This document shows, piece by piece, positions 27,247 through 33,024 of a DNA stretch of 40,436 nt. A program made the translations under genes and the position numbers. Location: the NCBI GenBank assembly GCA_902541175.1, contig CACBPP010000002.1, positions 181,589 through 222,024 of the forward strand. The letters run 5' to 3'. Under the pieces are notes generated by a model that was not told the origin of the DNA, did no database searches, and saw only the letters and a list, made by a program, of their open reading frames with translations. Every line of letters starts with the position of its first letter. Position 1 is the stretch's first letter. Source of the DNA: an uncultured SAR86 cluster bacterium. Lineage in GTDB: Bacteria > Pseudomonadota > Gammaproteobacteria > Magnimaribacterales > D2472.

Positions 27247-27960
27247 ATGGGGAATATCTTTAGATTTTTTTTATTTTCAGCCATTACGGTCTTTTTGGTG
27301 GGTTGTTCTTTCTTTAACAAAGAAATGAGTTGTGAAGAAATTCTAATAAATTCTTATGAGGAGTCTTCATTAAACAACTTTGAAAAAAATAAATTTAGAG
27401 ACTTGCTCGAAAATAGATATCCTCAATACGACGAAATGTTTGCATCAGCATCCAGAGAAACAAACATTGAAAAGAATCTTTTAGCAGCAATCTCATTTCA
27501 AGAATCTCAATGGGATCCAAGAGCAAAATCTAATATGGGTGTTAGAGGTATGATGATGGTTACATTAGAGACTGCAGCCTTAGTTGGCGTTGAAAAAAGA
27601 CTAAATCCTGAACAAAATATTAAAGGCGGAGCAAAATATTTTTCCATGCTTCAAAATAAAAATAAAATCGGTCCCTCCGAAGCTGATAAATTATCAATTG
27701 TATTGGCAAGTTATAATCTTGGACCAACAAATATCATTAAAATAGCTGGTCAAATAGATTCAAATATTGAAAACGTTACTTGGGAGGATATAAAAGAAAA
27801 ACTCAAAGTAACTACTGGAGAAGATCTTAATATGATGGATAACGGATCCTACTCGAGGGCTCAACAGGCTATAGATTATGTTGATAGAGTTAAGAGCTAT
27901 TATCAATTAATGAGTGCTCATGCATGTGTAAATCCTAAAGATCAATTAACTTTCTTTTAA
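27247..27960 (+). CDS. MltF-like lytic transglycosylase lipoprotein lacking the sensor domain
   Basis: 237 residues. A lipoprotein signal ends in FLVGC with the lipidated cysteine at residue 20. The rest is a lysozyme-like transglycosylase (SLT) domain: [29 protein letters not shown] with catalytic Glu86, then [12 protein letters not shown], and [12 protein letters not shown]. This matches the C-terminal half of MltF closely, including the GVRGMMM string. E. coli MltF is about twice as long because a solute-binding-like domain precedes the catalytic part; that domain is missing here. It cleaves peptidoglycan glycan strands, probably from the outer membrane. Its 3' end overlaps uvrB by 26 bases, tail to tail. 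No Shine-Dalgarno is evident. Confidence 0.88.
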
Positions 27961-29944
27961 GCGAAGTTATTTTATCTCTGCAAACTGCAGCTTTTTCGAA
28001 TTCCATTTTTTTTGCCAAATCAAACATCTCATCTTCTAATTTTTGTAAAGTCTCAGTAATGTTATCTACAGTGTCATCCTTAATCTTAAAGGTAACAATT
28101 TTATCAATGTCTTCTTTTTTCTTTTTGGTATTTCCCTTAATTATTCTTGCGCCTTCCATAATATCTTTAACTTTTGTTGAAATAGATTTTGGCGTGATGT
28201 TGTTTTTGTCATTAAACTCTTCTTGAATGGACCTTCTTCTATCTGTTTCATCTATTGCCCTTTGCATTGATCCGGTTACTTTGTCTGCATATAAAATAGC
28301 TTTCCCCCTCAAATTTCTTGCTGCTCTTCCAATTGTTTGAATTAAAGTAGTATCAGATCTCAAAAACCCCTCTTTATCTGCATCTAAAACTGCAACGAGA
28401 CTTACCTCAGGAATATCTAAGCCCTCTCTTAATAAATTAATGCCAACAAGAACATCAAATTTACCTAATCTAAGATCTCTAATAATTTCAACACGCTCTA
28501 CTGTGTCTATATCAGAGTGCATGTATCTCGCAGATATATTATTTTCATTTAAGTAATCTGTTAAATCTTCTGCCATTCTTTTTGTAAGAGTGGTCACTAA
28601 TACTCTTTCTTTCATTGCAACTCTTTCGTTACATTCGCCTATAACATCATCAATTTGTGTCGAGGCAGGTCTTATTTCTACCTCAGGGTCTGTGAGGCCA
28701 GTTGGTCTTACTAGCAACTCGACTAAATTATCTTGCTTTTCATTTTCATATTTACTTGGAGTGGCAGATACGTAAATTCTTTGTGGTGCCAACATTTCCC
28801 ATTCCTCAAATTTTAAAGGCCTATTATCTAAAGCTGATGGAAGTCTAAAACCATATTCAACTAGTGTTTCTTTTCTTGATCTATCGCCTTTATACATTGC
28901 TCCTATTTGCGGAACAGAAACATGAGATTCATCAATAAAAACAATTGCATCCTTTGGAATATAATCAAATAAACACGGTGGCGACTCTCCAGGTTTTCTG
29001 CCACTTAAATATCTTGAATAATTTTCAATACCCTGACAATAACCAAGCTCACGCATCATTTCGATGTCATAATTGGTTCTCTCTTCTAATCTTTGAGCCT
29101 CAACAAGTTTATTGTTGTCTCTTAGAAAGTTAAGTCGTGTTTTCAATTCATCTTTTATATCTGGAATGCAATTTGTAACTGTATCTTTTGGTGTGACGTA
29201 ATGGGTTTTAGGAAAAATCGTGACTCTTGGAATATCGCTAATAATGACTCCTGTAAGAGGATCAAACCATGATAATTTTTCAATTTCATCACCAAAAAAT
29301 TCAATTCTTAATGCCTCCTTGTCTGAGTCAGCAGGATAAACATCAACCGTATCTCCTCTAACTCTGAAGGTTGCTCGCCTAAAATCTAAATCGTTTCTTG
29401 TATATTGAAGCGCAGATAATCTTAAAACAAGATCACGTTGAGAAATCATATCTCCTCTATCAAGATGAACAACCATTTTTAGATAAGATTCGGGTGCGCC
29501 TAAACCATAAATTGATGAGACAGTTGCAACTACAACAGTATCTTTTCTTTCTATAAGAGCTTTAGTTGCAGAAAGTCTCATTTGTTCGATATGCTCATTT
29601 ATCGAAGCATCTTTTGCGATATATGTATCAGATGTTGGAACATAAGCCTCTGGCTGATAATAGTCATAATAAGAAACAAAATACTCGACAGAATTATTTG
29701 GAAAAAAATCTCTAAATTCGCCATATAGCTGAGCAGCGAGGGTTTTATTGTGAGCCATTATAATTGCAGGTCTCTGAGTCTCCTCAATAACTTTTGCCAT
29801 AGTGTAAGTTTTTCCAGATCCTGTAACACCTAATAGAGTTTGATGCAGCAATCCATCCTCAAGCCCAGATACTAAATTATTAATAGCTTCAGGTTGAGAT
29901 CCAGCTGGCTCAAAATCAGATACAACCTTTAATGTTTTTGTCAT
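27935..29944 (-). CDS. uvrB: Excinuclease ABC subunit B
   Basis: 669 residues, full length. UvrB is the damage-verifying helicase-like subunit of nucleotide excision repair. Walker A is GVTGSGKT (39-46). The beta-hairpin that grips DNA is [12 protein letters not shown] (92-103), and Walker B is [10 protein letters not shown]. Helicase motifs V/VI read [18 protein letters not shown] and [11 protein letters not shown]-terminal UVR motif ([24 protein letters not shown]) binds UvrC. No LexA-type CTG-N10-CAG site is seen in the 45 bases upstream, unlike the SOS-controlled uvrB of E. coli. Confidence 0.98.
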
Positions 29945-29973
29945 TTACTTATATATAAAAAATTACTTATAAT
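29944..29973 (+). promoter_or_regulatory. Promoter of tRNA-Asn
   Basis: TTTACT (29944-29949) and a perfect TATAAT (29968-29973) are 18 bases apart. The expected start falls about 10 bases before the tRNA, after a GC-containing discriminator (GCTCTGC), as is common for stable RNA promoters. It overlaps the uvrB start region on the other strand. Confidence 0.6.
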
Positions 29974-30552: not shown

Positions 30553-31671
30553 GTGATTAATAAAATAAGCGTCAAAAGCATGCTAAGTGGACTCGAGGGA
30601 AAACTTGGAGGGGATGACTATACTGAGCCACTTGAAATTCTGATAAATTCAGCCAATAAAAATAACGAATTTAATCTTTTTGGTTCCATAGCATTTAAAA
30701 ATCAGCTTAAAGATAGGCTGAAAATGAGAAGTAAATTATATGACTTTGTAAAAGACAGAGATCTCCCCTCTCCAGCTAATCCAGTTTTTGTTACTGGTCT
30801 TCCAAGGTCGGGTACTACTTTTCTTTTTAATTTACTTGCTCTTGATAATAGTCATAGGTCTCCTAGATATTGGGAAATAATGTCCTTAATGCCATTAGTT
30901 AAAAATAAATTTGATATTAAAAGACGGGAATGGAAAATCAATGCTGAATTAAAGTTTGCAAGAACAATTATTCCTAAATTAAGAAACATGCATCATATAA
31001 GAGCAAATTCACCAGAAGAGTGTGAACTCCTTGCAACCATAAATGTAAGAAGTTTTGTCTATATGTGTATGGCAAATGTTCCTGAATACGTAGAGTATCT
31101 AAAAGACTGTAGCTTTGATTCTGTTTTTAAATGGCATAAACGATTTTTTCAAGTCCTAGAAATTAATGGAAGACCAAAAAGATGGTTACTTAAAGATCCA
31201 AGTCATATAGGTCATATTCCAGAAATATTAACCACTTATCCAAATGCAAAATTTATAAATATACATAGAGATCCTATGGAATCGGTAGCATCTTTTTGCA
31301 GCCTTGCTAAAAATATAAGATCTGCGTTCTCAAAGAATGTAAATCCAGAGCAAATTGGTGAAGTTATTTTAGACTTTTGGCAACACAGTCTTCAAAAAGG
31401 CATCCAAGCTAAAGAAAACCTTTCCTCAGATCAAATCATCGATATTAGTTATAGCAATTTTATAGATGATCCTTTAAACATTTTGAAAGATATATACCAA
31501 AACTTTGAATTTGATATGGATATAGAAACCGAAAATAAAATTAAAAACTATCTAATAAATCAGAGTAAGTTAAAAAAAGAAAAGCATTCATATTCAATAG
31601 AAGAATTTGGTTTAAACGAAGCTAAAGTTAAAGACTGTTTTAAAAACTACATGATGAACTATGAATTTTGA
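30553..31671 (+). CDS. Sulfotransferase family protein
   Basis: 372 residues from a GTG; an ATG at 30580 would give 363. Neither start has a good ribosome site. The PAPS-binding 5'-phosphosulfate loop is VTGLPRSGTTFLFN (80-93), and the 3'-phosphate loop is the NIHRDPMESVASFCS segment near 235-250, with LLKDPSHIGHI just before it. This matches the Sulfotransfer_3 type, which sulfates small molecules, lipids or glycans; the acceptor is unknown. No PAPS synthesis genes are in the window. It is followed 34 bases later by the cyclophilin gene. Confidence 0.85.
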   Translation: MINKISVKSMLSGLEGKLGGDDYTEPLEILINSANKNNEFNLFGSIAFKNQLKDRLKMRSKLYDFVKDRDLPSPANPVFVTGLPRSGTTFLFNLLALDNSHRSPRYWEIMSLMPLVKNKFDIKRREWKINAELKFARTIIPKLRNMHHIRANSPEECELLATINVRSFVYMCMANVPEYVEYLKDCSFDSVFKWHKRFFQVLEINGRPKRWLLKDPSHIGHIPEILTTYPNAKFINIHRDPMESVASFCSLAKNIRSAFSKNVNPEQIGEVILDFWQHSLQKGIQAKENLSSDQIIDISYSNFIDDPLNILKDIYQNFEFDMDIETENKIKNYLINQSKLKKEKHSYSIEEFGLNEAKVKDCFKNYMMNYEF

Positions 31672-31705
31672 TGATAAAATCAATATTAATACCTAAGGCG
31701 AATCA

Positions 31706-32314
31706 TTGAAAACTAGAAACTTTAAAATCTTTATACCTCTTTTAGTCGCATTAACCTCATGTGTGGATGTTATTGAAAATGATGAAGCTAATAATCTTAT
31801 GGAGAATAAAATGACACAAGTAACAATAAAAACATCTGTTGGAGACATTCAACTTGAACTTAATGACGAGAAAGCACCTATAACAGTTGAAAATTTTAAA
31901 ACTATTGCCTCAAGTGGATATTATGAAGGAACAATATTTCATAGAGTTATAAATGGTTTCATGATTCAAGGTGGCGGATTAACTGCTGACATGAATAATA
32001 AGTCTAGTGGAACCGGTCCTATACAAAATGAAGCTAATAATGGATTGCCAAATGACAGAGGTACTATTGCAATGGCTAGAACGATGGATCCACACTCAGC
32101 TACAAGTCAGTTCTTTATTAATCACAAGGACAATGCATTTCTAAATCATACCGGGGAAACATCTCAAGGATGGGGATATGCTGTATTTGGTATGGTTACT
32201 GAAGGTATGGATATTGTTGATCAAATAGCAGAAGTTGCAACTGGATCATCTGGAGCTTATCAAGACGTTCCTGAAGAAGTGATAACTATTGAGTCAGTTA
32301 CTATCTCTGAATGA
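31706..32314 (+). CDS. ppiB: Cyclophilin-type peptidyl-prolyl isomerase with lipoprotein-like leader
   Basis: 202 residues from a TTG start with AAGGCG upstream. The first 19 residues form a lipoprotein signal (basic start, hydrophobic core, lipobox LTSC). The remainder, from residue 36, is a PpiB-type cyclophilin: [14 protein letters not shown], the catalytic Arg in [35 protein letters not shown] and the conserved GWGYAVFG. An internal ATG at 31811 gives a 167-residue product equal in extent to cytoplasmic PpiB, and it has the better ribosome site. The stop overlaps lpxH as ATGA; ppiB-lpxH is a conserved gammaproteobacterial pair. Confidence 0.9.
31801..31813 (+). promoter_or_regulatory. Internal ribosome binding site and ATG within ppiB
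   Basis: GGAGA at 31801-31805 lies 5-6 bases before the ATG at 31811. This is close to ideal and stronger than the site before the outer TTG. It would start the protein at MTQVTIKT, exactly where cytoplasmic cyclophilins begin. Confidence 0.6.
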
Positions 32315-33024
32315 CATCCTTTTTTATATCGGACATACATTTAAGCGAAAGTAATAATAAACTATCTTCTGCTTTTATAAATTTTCTTAAAGATTCTAAA
32401 GAATCTTGCTCACAACTTTTTATTCTTGGAGACTTATTTGAAGTTTGGATTGGCGATGATTATGAAACAAGTTTTATAAACAACATAAAATCTGAACTTT
32501 TAAAGTTTACAACTAACGGACCGGATACTTTTCTTATGCATGGTAATAGAGATTTTTTAATAAGTAAGAAGTTTTTGACTGATACTGGTATTAAACTTCT
32601 TCCCGATCCATTTGAAATAACTATGCATAATAAAAAAGTTCTCTTAAGTCATGGAGACTTCTTGTGTACTGATGACGTTGATTACATTAATTTTAGAAAT
32701 CAAGTTAGAGATAAAGCCTGGCAAGATAATTTTTTGAGTAAGTCAATTGAAGAAAGAAGTGAAATCGCATCAAAACTAAGAAGTGATAGCAATGATGCAA
32801 CCCAAGATAAATCGATAGAAATCACTGATGTTAACGAGTCATCGGTCAAAAAAATTATTGGCGATTACTCTCCTGACATATTTATTCATGGTCACACTCA
32901 CAGACCTAATATTCATGAATATGCATCCTCAAAACGTATTGTTCTTGGCGATTGGGATGACTTTGGTTGGTATCTTCGTCTTGACGATGAATCATATAAT
33001 TTAGAAAAATTTTCTATTGTTTGA
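32311..33024 (+). CDS. lpxH: UDP-2,3-diacylglucosamine diphosphatase
   Basis: 237 residues. It hydrolyses UDP-2,3-diacylglucosamine to lipid X in lipid A synthesis. Metallophosphoesterase motifs come in order: FISDIHLSE (4-12), [12 protein letters not shown] (near 39-50), HGNRDFLI (near 78-85), [11 protein letters not shown] and IHGHTHRPN near 193-201. It begins in a 4-base ATGA overlap with ppiB, indicating coupled translation. Its presence shows an outer membrane with lipid A. Confidence 0.95.

Follow-up and report, generated by a model that had tools for sequence, protein, structure and literature searches.

A SAR86 cyclophilin gene with two conserved in-frame start sites, predicted to supply an envelope and a cytoplasmic form

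The window, by which we mean the whole stretch of DNA that was analysed, comprises 40,436 nucleotides of contig CACBPP010000002.1 from an uncultured SAR86 cluster bacterium. It carries a cyclophilin gene, the one PF00160 gene found in its genome (1.155 Mb, 90% complete), with two start codons in one frame, each preceded by a Shine-Dalgarno sequence. The features of the locus are as follows.

31672..31680, + strand: extended -10-like box TGATAAAAT, a candidate promoter at the end of the preceding gene, conserved in several genera
31694..31698, + strand: Shine-Dalgarno sequence of the outer start, TAAGG (5-nt match, 7-nt gap to the TTG, duplex energy -4.6 kcal/mol)
31706..32314, + strand: PpiB-type cyclophilin gene, 202 aa from the TTG and 167 aa from the ATG at 31811
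31706..31708, + strand: outer start codon TTG of the long form, with the frame open from here to 32314
31706..31762, + strand: lipoprotein-type leader, as read from the sequence, with the lipobox LTSC at residues 16-19
31801..31804, + strand: Shine-Dalgarno sequence of the inner start, GGAG (6-nt gap to the ATG at 31811, duplex energy -6.4 kcal/mol)
31811..31813, + strand: inner start codon ATG of the short, predicted cytoplasmic form, in frame with the TTG (residue 36 of the long form)
32311..33024, + strand: lpxH, the next gene (NCBIfam PRK05340, 281.4 bits, cut-off 134), overlapping the cyclophilin stop by 4 bases

The window protein matched PF00160 with 158.6 bits (cut-off 21.7) over profile positions 2-158 of 159, which places it in this family. 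The NCBIfam PpiB equivalog model PRK10791.1 gave a full-length match of 226.5 bits, below its cut-off of 297, and the protein is therefore called PpiB-type here and not a PRK10791 equivalog; the score with the PpiA model was lower (215.6 bits, cut-off 308). The closest solved structures were those of E. coli PpiB (2nul) and like proteins, and the nearest named record (L002), from SAR86 isolate AG-918-K05, was 99% identical over the whole protein. The same genome encodes other isomerases as well: a SurA-like one of 415 aa with two Rotamase matches, a PpiD-like one of 639 aa, a trigger-factor-like one of 459 aa with an FKBP domain, and an FKBP lipoprotein, all named by inference from domain and size. 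Since other envelope isomerases are present, an exported cyclophilin would be a helper and not the sole isomerase of the envelope. The small FKBP of this genome (L347, frame from base 1261) is likely a lipoprotein (ILTGC), and no obvious inner start was seen in it by eye.

The initial annotation had described a TTG start with a ribosome-binding site of its own, a lipobox in the leader that it opens and an internal ATG in the same frame, and direct reading of the sequence bore out all three: TAAGG stands 7 nt before the TTG, LTSC occupies residues 16-19, and the frame runs through the ATG at 31811 to 32314. Two further statements had to be toned down. The inner Shine-Dalgarno sequence had been called better, which holds for the duplex energy (-6.4 against -4.6 kcal/mol) and not for the contiguous match (4 nt at the inner start, 5 at the outer). 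The inner start had also been placed exactly at the canonical N-terminus of PpiB; this is slightly too strong, since residues 2-164 of E. coli PpiB align with residues 39-202 of the long form, and the inner Met, residue 36, thus lies 2 residues ahead of the E. coli start. One more in-frame ATG, at 31799, has no Shine-Dalgarno sequence. The 3' end of the 16S rRNA from the same genome, whose gene was located by family search, bears the canonical anti-Shine-Dalgarno sequence, GGATCACCTCCTTA. The lipobox, a sign of a bacterial lipoprotein, is a motif that follows a charged and hydrophobic stretch; in the window leader LTSC comes after such a stretch, with a hydrophobic 12-mer mean of 2.38, and the long form is a predicted lipoprotein. 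A 12-codon ORF, from ATG 31671 to TGA 31709, overlaps the outer TTG, and translational coupling is possible there.

Among the 31 non-overlapping ORFs of at least 150 aa in the window, the cyclophilin gene alone (1/31) contained an ATG within codons 20-60 preceded by a Shine-Dalgarno match of at least 4 nt at a spacing of 4-9 nt. When every NTG in codons 20-60 of these ORFs was considered, 2 of 45 satisfied the Shine-Dalgarno rule, the second being a TTG inside the ORF at 27938-29947 on the minus strand. As the decisive argument against a chance origin of the inner start we regard its conservation in relatives.

Cyclophilin matches were found in 91 of the 107 genomes of the window's family (f1, with g1 for the window's genus) and in 157 of the 176 genomes of at least 70% completeness in the SAR86 order. 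Outside the family there were 76, of which 40 were taken from three other families of the order: 10 of 34 in f2, 14 of 26 in f3 and 16 of 16 in f4. Two fragments (G024 and G044) and G082, whose N-terminus is lost at a contig end, were left out. The leader-bearing genes counted were 104, made up of 78 from f1, 13 from f3 and 13 from f4. One of the three cyclophilin copies in the G103 assembly (2% contamination), L147, has a broken leader frame and an intact inner start; this frameshifted copy stands outside the counts over 104 genes and inside the energy count over 105. Wherever the f1, f2 and f3 loci extend far enough, lpxH adjoins the cyclophilin gene, just as it follows ppiB in E. coli, and it was absent from that place in the 16 f4 loci.

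In each of the 104 leader genes the inner start, which was ATG in 91 and GTG in 13, follows a run of 4 or more contiguous Shine-Dalgarno bases at a distance of 4-9 nt; the match measured 4 nt in 42 genes, 5 in 12, 6 in 44, 7 in 5 and 8 in 1. Elsewhere in these genes the same rule was satisfied by 22.8% of the 707 remaining in-frame NTG codons and by 16.8% of 16,734 other codons, and the median duplex energy was -8.5 kcal/mol at the inner start versus -1.7 at other codons (105 genes, L147 included). The view of f3 as a leader-only family, which came from a first pass that found no inner ATG in its 13 genes, was rejected, the codons showing AAGGAG-N6-GTG in 13 of 13. The rule was widened to GTG after f3 had been seen, and f3 is therefore also given apart below. 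An outer site was present in 102 of the 104 genes and is cut by the contig end in G001 and G077; two in-frame starts are thus conserved in the relatives, with a ribosome-binding site at the inner start in all of these genes and at the outer start at least in the window. The expectation that relatives would keep both the lipobox and the inner start was borne out in the window's genus, where a lipobox-like motif and an inner Shine-Dalgarno sequence with ATG were each present in 27 of 27 leader genes. For SAR86 as a whole it stood as far as the inner start is concerned (104 of 104 single-copy leader genes) and not for the lipobox, which is often replaced, or the leader absent, outside the genus.

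We think it likely, on these comparisons, that a PpiB-type gene gained an export leader before its old start and kept that start, and that one mRNA is read at both, giving an envelope lipoprotein and a cytoplasmic enzyme. Ribosomes would enter the mRNA at two starts; from the weak outer TTG they would make a lipoprotein held outside the cytoplasm, and from the inner GGAG-ATG ordinary cytoplasmic PpiB. Because the duplex energy favours the inner ATG over the outer TTG, the cytoplasmic form is probably the major product. We infer that ribosomes use both starts, that the longer product is lipidated and leaves the cytoplasm, and that each product is important to the cell. The usual annotation allows a bacterial gene one start, and the conservation found here would indicate a gene selected for two.

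It is improbable that the inner start alone is used, the upstream frame being a relic or rarely read and the enzyme purely cytoplasmic. Such a state would agree with the outer start of the window, a TTG with the weaker Shine-Dalgarno energy, with the existence of leaderless relatives that have no second cyclophilin, and with the faster evolution of the leaders, whose pN/pS (0.23-0.93) lies above that of the domain (0.05-0.19). However, the outer start of the window has its own Shine-Dalgarno sequence, the frames of the leaders are open and code for hydrophobic stretches, a lipobox-like motif being present in all 27 g1 and all 16 g9 genes, and one genome, G072, keeps an exported copy apart from a cytosolic copy. 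The leader pN/pS also speaks against a relic, with values of 0.44-0.58 in the four f1 genera that have 13 or more pairs (g1 0.45, g5 0.58, g9 0.44, g7 0.49) and 0.23 in f4; those of f3g20 (0.65, 3 pairs) and f3g18 (0.93, 2 pairs) come from few pairs. The leader is coding, to judge from these ratios, and under weak purifying selection.

Across SAR86, leaders of different kinds precede the same inner start. Besides g1 and g9, a lipobox-like motif was present in g2 (1/1), g4 (1/1), g7 (6/7), g8 (1/1), g10 (2/2) and f3 (10/13), and it was absent from the leader genes of g5 (0/19), g6 (0/4) and f4 (0/13). Where the lipobox was missing, the leaders looked by eye like membrane anchors (g5, f4 and f3g15) or a Sec-like leader (g6). 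As the first NTG of their leader frames, 23 of 27 g1 genes have TTG, all 7 of g7 and 11 of 16 of g9 have GTG, and those of g5, g6, g10, f3 and f4 mostly have ATG. Three members of the genus, G061 (L101), G076 (L104) and G066 (L128), carry, ahead of this inner start, a lipoprotein leader that is longer and of another kind (SPPEPG..DEWYEEKY), which looks like an exchange of leaders.

Very improbable is the converse, in which translation begins at the outer start alone and all of the enzyme is exported, with the inner GGAG-ATG due to chance or to a protein-level feature (a conserved Glu and Met). Glu codons can yield GGAG, and in several genera synonymous shuffling is by itself a weak argument: the shuffles gave a combined p of 1.2e-5 over 14 genera and were not significant in g1, g7, g8, g10 and f4 singly (median p 0.12-0.25). 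Against a protein-level cause, however, third bases are fixed across different amino acids. Codon -4, which in f1 is GAG, ATG, AAG, ACG, CAG or TTG (six amino acids), ends in G in 78 of 78 genes, compared with a background third-base G of 9.9%, and Glu at -3 is encoded by GAG in 79 of 98 genes, compared with 45% in the most GAG-rich of the other conserved Glu columns. All 13 f3 genes share the codons AAG, GAG and GTG, whereas these codons make up at most 31%, 54% and 31% of other conserved Lys, Glu and Val columns; as the start in this family is GTG, there is no conserved Met in it. The f4 inner site (TAAGGA, GGAG or similar) stands at a shifted position, so only 7 of 13 genes have G as the last base of codon -4. 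Furthermore, cytosolic-only relatives never have an exported-only gene in its place. At the inner start, these codon comparisons argue, it is nucleotides and not just amino acids that are kept. Hardly credible is the idea that the inner Shine-Dalgarno-like site is not a start and slows ribosomes for recognition of the leader in export. Most of the sites do lie about 35 codons past the outer start, where a pause could follow the emergence of the leader from the ribosome and help its recognition. Yet every one of the 104 genes has an in-frame ATG or GTG 4-9 nt after the site, in G061, G066 and G076 the site is as far as 82-83 codons from the open-frame start, and in copy 1 of G072 site and start codon were lost together.

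For the preferred reading, with one transcript serving both starts, the region upstream of the gene is of interest. The TGATAAAAT box occurs before the leader loci in 19 of 26 g1, 16 of 16 g9, 4 of 4 g6, 1 of 1 g4 and 1 of 1 g8 cases, and it was absent from those of g5 (0/19), g7 (0/7), g10 (0/2), f3 (0/13) and f4 (0/13). Its presence in the window suggests one mRNA carrying both starts. An internal promoter for the short form was rejected on a sigma-70 scan of 31550-32400, which gave 4 sites (4.5 expected), none of them between the starts; the scan requires a -35 box, and the TGATAAAAT box was not among its sites. In five f2 loci (L172, L173 and L176-L178, from G112, G110, G125, G126 and G122) a Shine-Dalgarno sequence is missing and the ATG comes about 7-8 nt after the end of a -10-like TATACT, so the mRNA may have no 5' leader in these cases.

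Genomes with leaderless genes only were all 10 of f1g3, all 10 of those taken from f2, and one f3 and three f4 genomes (G154, G177, G181 and G184), and each had one cyclophilin match. As no second cyclophilin was found in these genomes, the exported form would be dispensable in those lineages. The cytosolic form appears to be available in every complete SAR86 case examined.

G072 contains two neighbouring cyclophilin copies. Copy 1 (L150), the one SAR86 leader gene in which no inner start was seen, has a 381-codon frame with the lipobox LMGC; the inner Shine-Dalgarno sequence is gone and the start codon has become TTC. Copy 2 is leaderless and has no recognisable Shine-Dalgarno sequence of its own, so the motif is not required for every cyclophilin start. 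The copies are sisters within the window's genus (SH-aLRT 83), with a branch of 0.35 for the exported and 0.021 for the leaderless one. Retention of an old tandem pair, conceivable given the adjacent exported and cytosolic copies of many Gammaproteobacteria, was rejected because the tree joins both copies inside that genus, and a recent duplication is the explanation that we prefer; G072 is what a division of two jobs after duplication would look like. In copy 1, about 200 extra residues lie between the lipobox and the domain.

In the tree, a quick one built with the copies of multi-copy Gammaproteobacteria and with many forks unsupported, the SAR86 genes fell on the cytosolic PpiB side (SH-aLRT 96), which also took in 25 of the 26 cytosolic rows and 5 of the 26 exported ones. 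Most simply, leaders would have been added upstream of the old start of a PpiB gene, perhaps in separate events in f3 and in f1/f4. On this quick tree there were at least 5 changes within SAR86 between the dual, the cytosolic-only and the exported-only state. Two start signals have apparently been retained for very long in the single cyclophilin gene of tiny ocean bacteria.

E. coli has two cyclophilin genes for two compartments, those of cytosolic PpiB and periplasmic PpiA, which share their domain with the SAR86 cyclophilin. In SAR86, whose genes group with the cytosolic PpiB copies, a single gene carries both leader and inner start in place of this two-gene arrangement. According to the citation in PMC1618848, Neurospora crassa has one cyclophilin gene for a cytosolic and a mitochondrial form (Tropschug 1988). 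The likeness, as far as this citation goes, lies in one cyclophilin gene with forms that have or lack a targeting leader; Neurospora, however, is a eukaryote and its leader mitochondrial, whereas SAR86 is a bacterium with a predicted envelope leader and a second ribosome-binding site in frame. The SAR86 locus would illustrate how two compartments can be supplied by a single gene in a streamlined genome. Salmonella pagC, ompX and yfhG are described as having two N-terminal proteoforms, an in-frame second start dropping the signal peptide or lipoprotein signal (PMC11005335; in the available text of this paper the word cyclophilin occurs 0 times). That description concerns ribosome profiling in one species, whereas the SAR86 case concerns conservation of the inner site over an order, seen in sequence alone. 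N-terminomics is said, in the available text on TRAINSPOTTER (PMC13245402), to miss signal-peptide proteins. The AquaCyps of marine Alphaproteobacteria (PMC4898713, available text) are likewise marine bacterial cyclophilins with additions to the domain, but these are large extensions and insertions, whereas SAR86 has a plain PpiB domain behind a leader. Going by the available parts of these sources, one gene for two cyclophilin locations (Neurospora) and second starts that drop a signal (Salmonella) are known already, and the bacterial cyclophilin version would be a variant of these. Among the matches listed from the open-licence literature, no bacterial cyclophilin with a leader and an inner start was found.

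Similar layouts occur beyond SAR86. Among 80 named loci, that of Cocleimonas flava (L040) has a lipobox followed by GGAG-ATG, and L066 and L081 have an AAGGAGG-type site followed by TTG. Class-wide, an inner start was scored at a duplex energy of -3.5 kcal/mol or lower, in loci picked by copy number and frame length among the matches listed. In the first sample, of 70 loci, leader genes had an inner ATG in 14 of 29 one-cyclophilin genomes versus 0 of 23 multi-copy genomes (p 6.3e-5, which like all the class-wide p-values is too small because the genomes are related); with any NTG admitted, the counts were 20 of 29 and 4 of 23. Three energy thresholds and two codon sets had been tried, and the combination strongest in this sample, ATG at -3.5, was then applied to a second one of 64 further loci, which shares families and some genera with the first. 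Here the same rule gave 11 of 24 versus 1 of 27 for ATG (p 5.5e-4) and 16 of 24 versus 7 of 27 for any NTG (p 0.005); at -5 kcal/mol the second sample was not significant, either for ATG (5/24 versus 1/27, p 0.088) or for any NTG (10/24 versus 6/27, p 0.23). Correction by the tree left 5 independent pairs on supported branches, too few to test; on the best tree regardless of support the pairs for, against and tied were 5.0, 0 and 13.7 for ATG and 7.5, 0 and 11.2 for any NTG. The tree-corrected link between copy number and inner start is suggestive. Since about half of the single-copy leader genes have no inner ATG by this rule, the link is no strict law, and G412, a two-copy genome with an inner ATG, is an exception to it. 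The leader rule missed likely leaders in the single-copy genomes G262, G369 and G428 (with an inner ATG) and G208, G338 and G422 (with none), and in the multi-copy genomes G221, G237, G240, G248, G361, G490 and G522, none of which has an inner ATG that reaches -3.5, G522 having a GTG at -7.7.

The initial proposal that a streamlined genome might cover two compartments with one gene is well supported by the comparative sequence data as regards the two forms predicted from one gene; the arrangement is, however, neither tied to the lipobox nor limited to SAR86 or to small genomes, and the exported form is absent from several SAR86 lineages. Tentatively, and with slightly less than even confidence, we suggest a recurrent solution in Gammaproteobacteria, in which a sole leader-bearing cyclophilin keeps a cytoplasmic form by means of an inner ribosome-binding site; it would have had several origins, its leader would be interchangeable (lipobox, Sec-like or membrane anchor), and duplication would resolve it into an exported and a cytosolic pair, as in G072. 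If this were true, two-compartment genes would lie hidden by single-start annotation. The natural split in G072 and the link with copy number make the two-start idea testable. Sequence conservation of this kind offers a way of detecting two-compartment proteins in bacteria that resist cultivation.

In many Gammaproteobacteria, G206, G255, G295 and G245 among them, an exported and a leaderless cyclophilin gene adjoin one another on the same strand.
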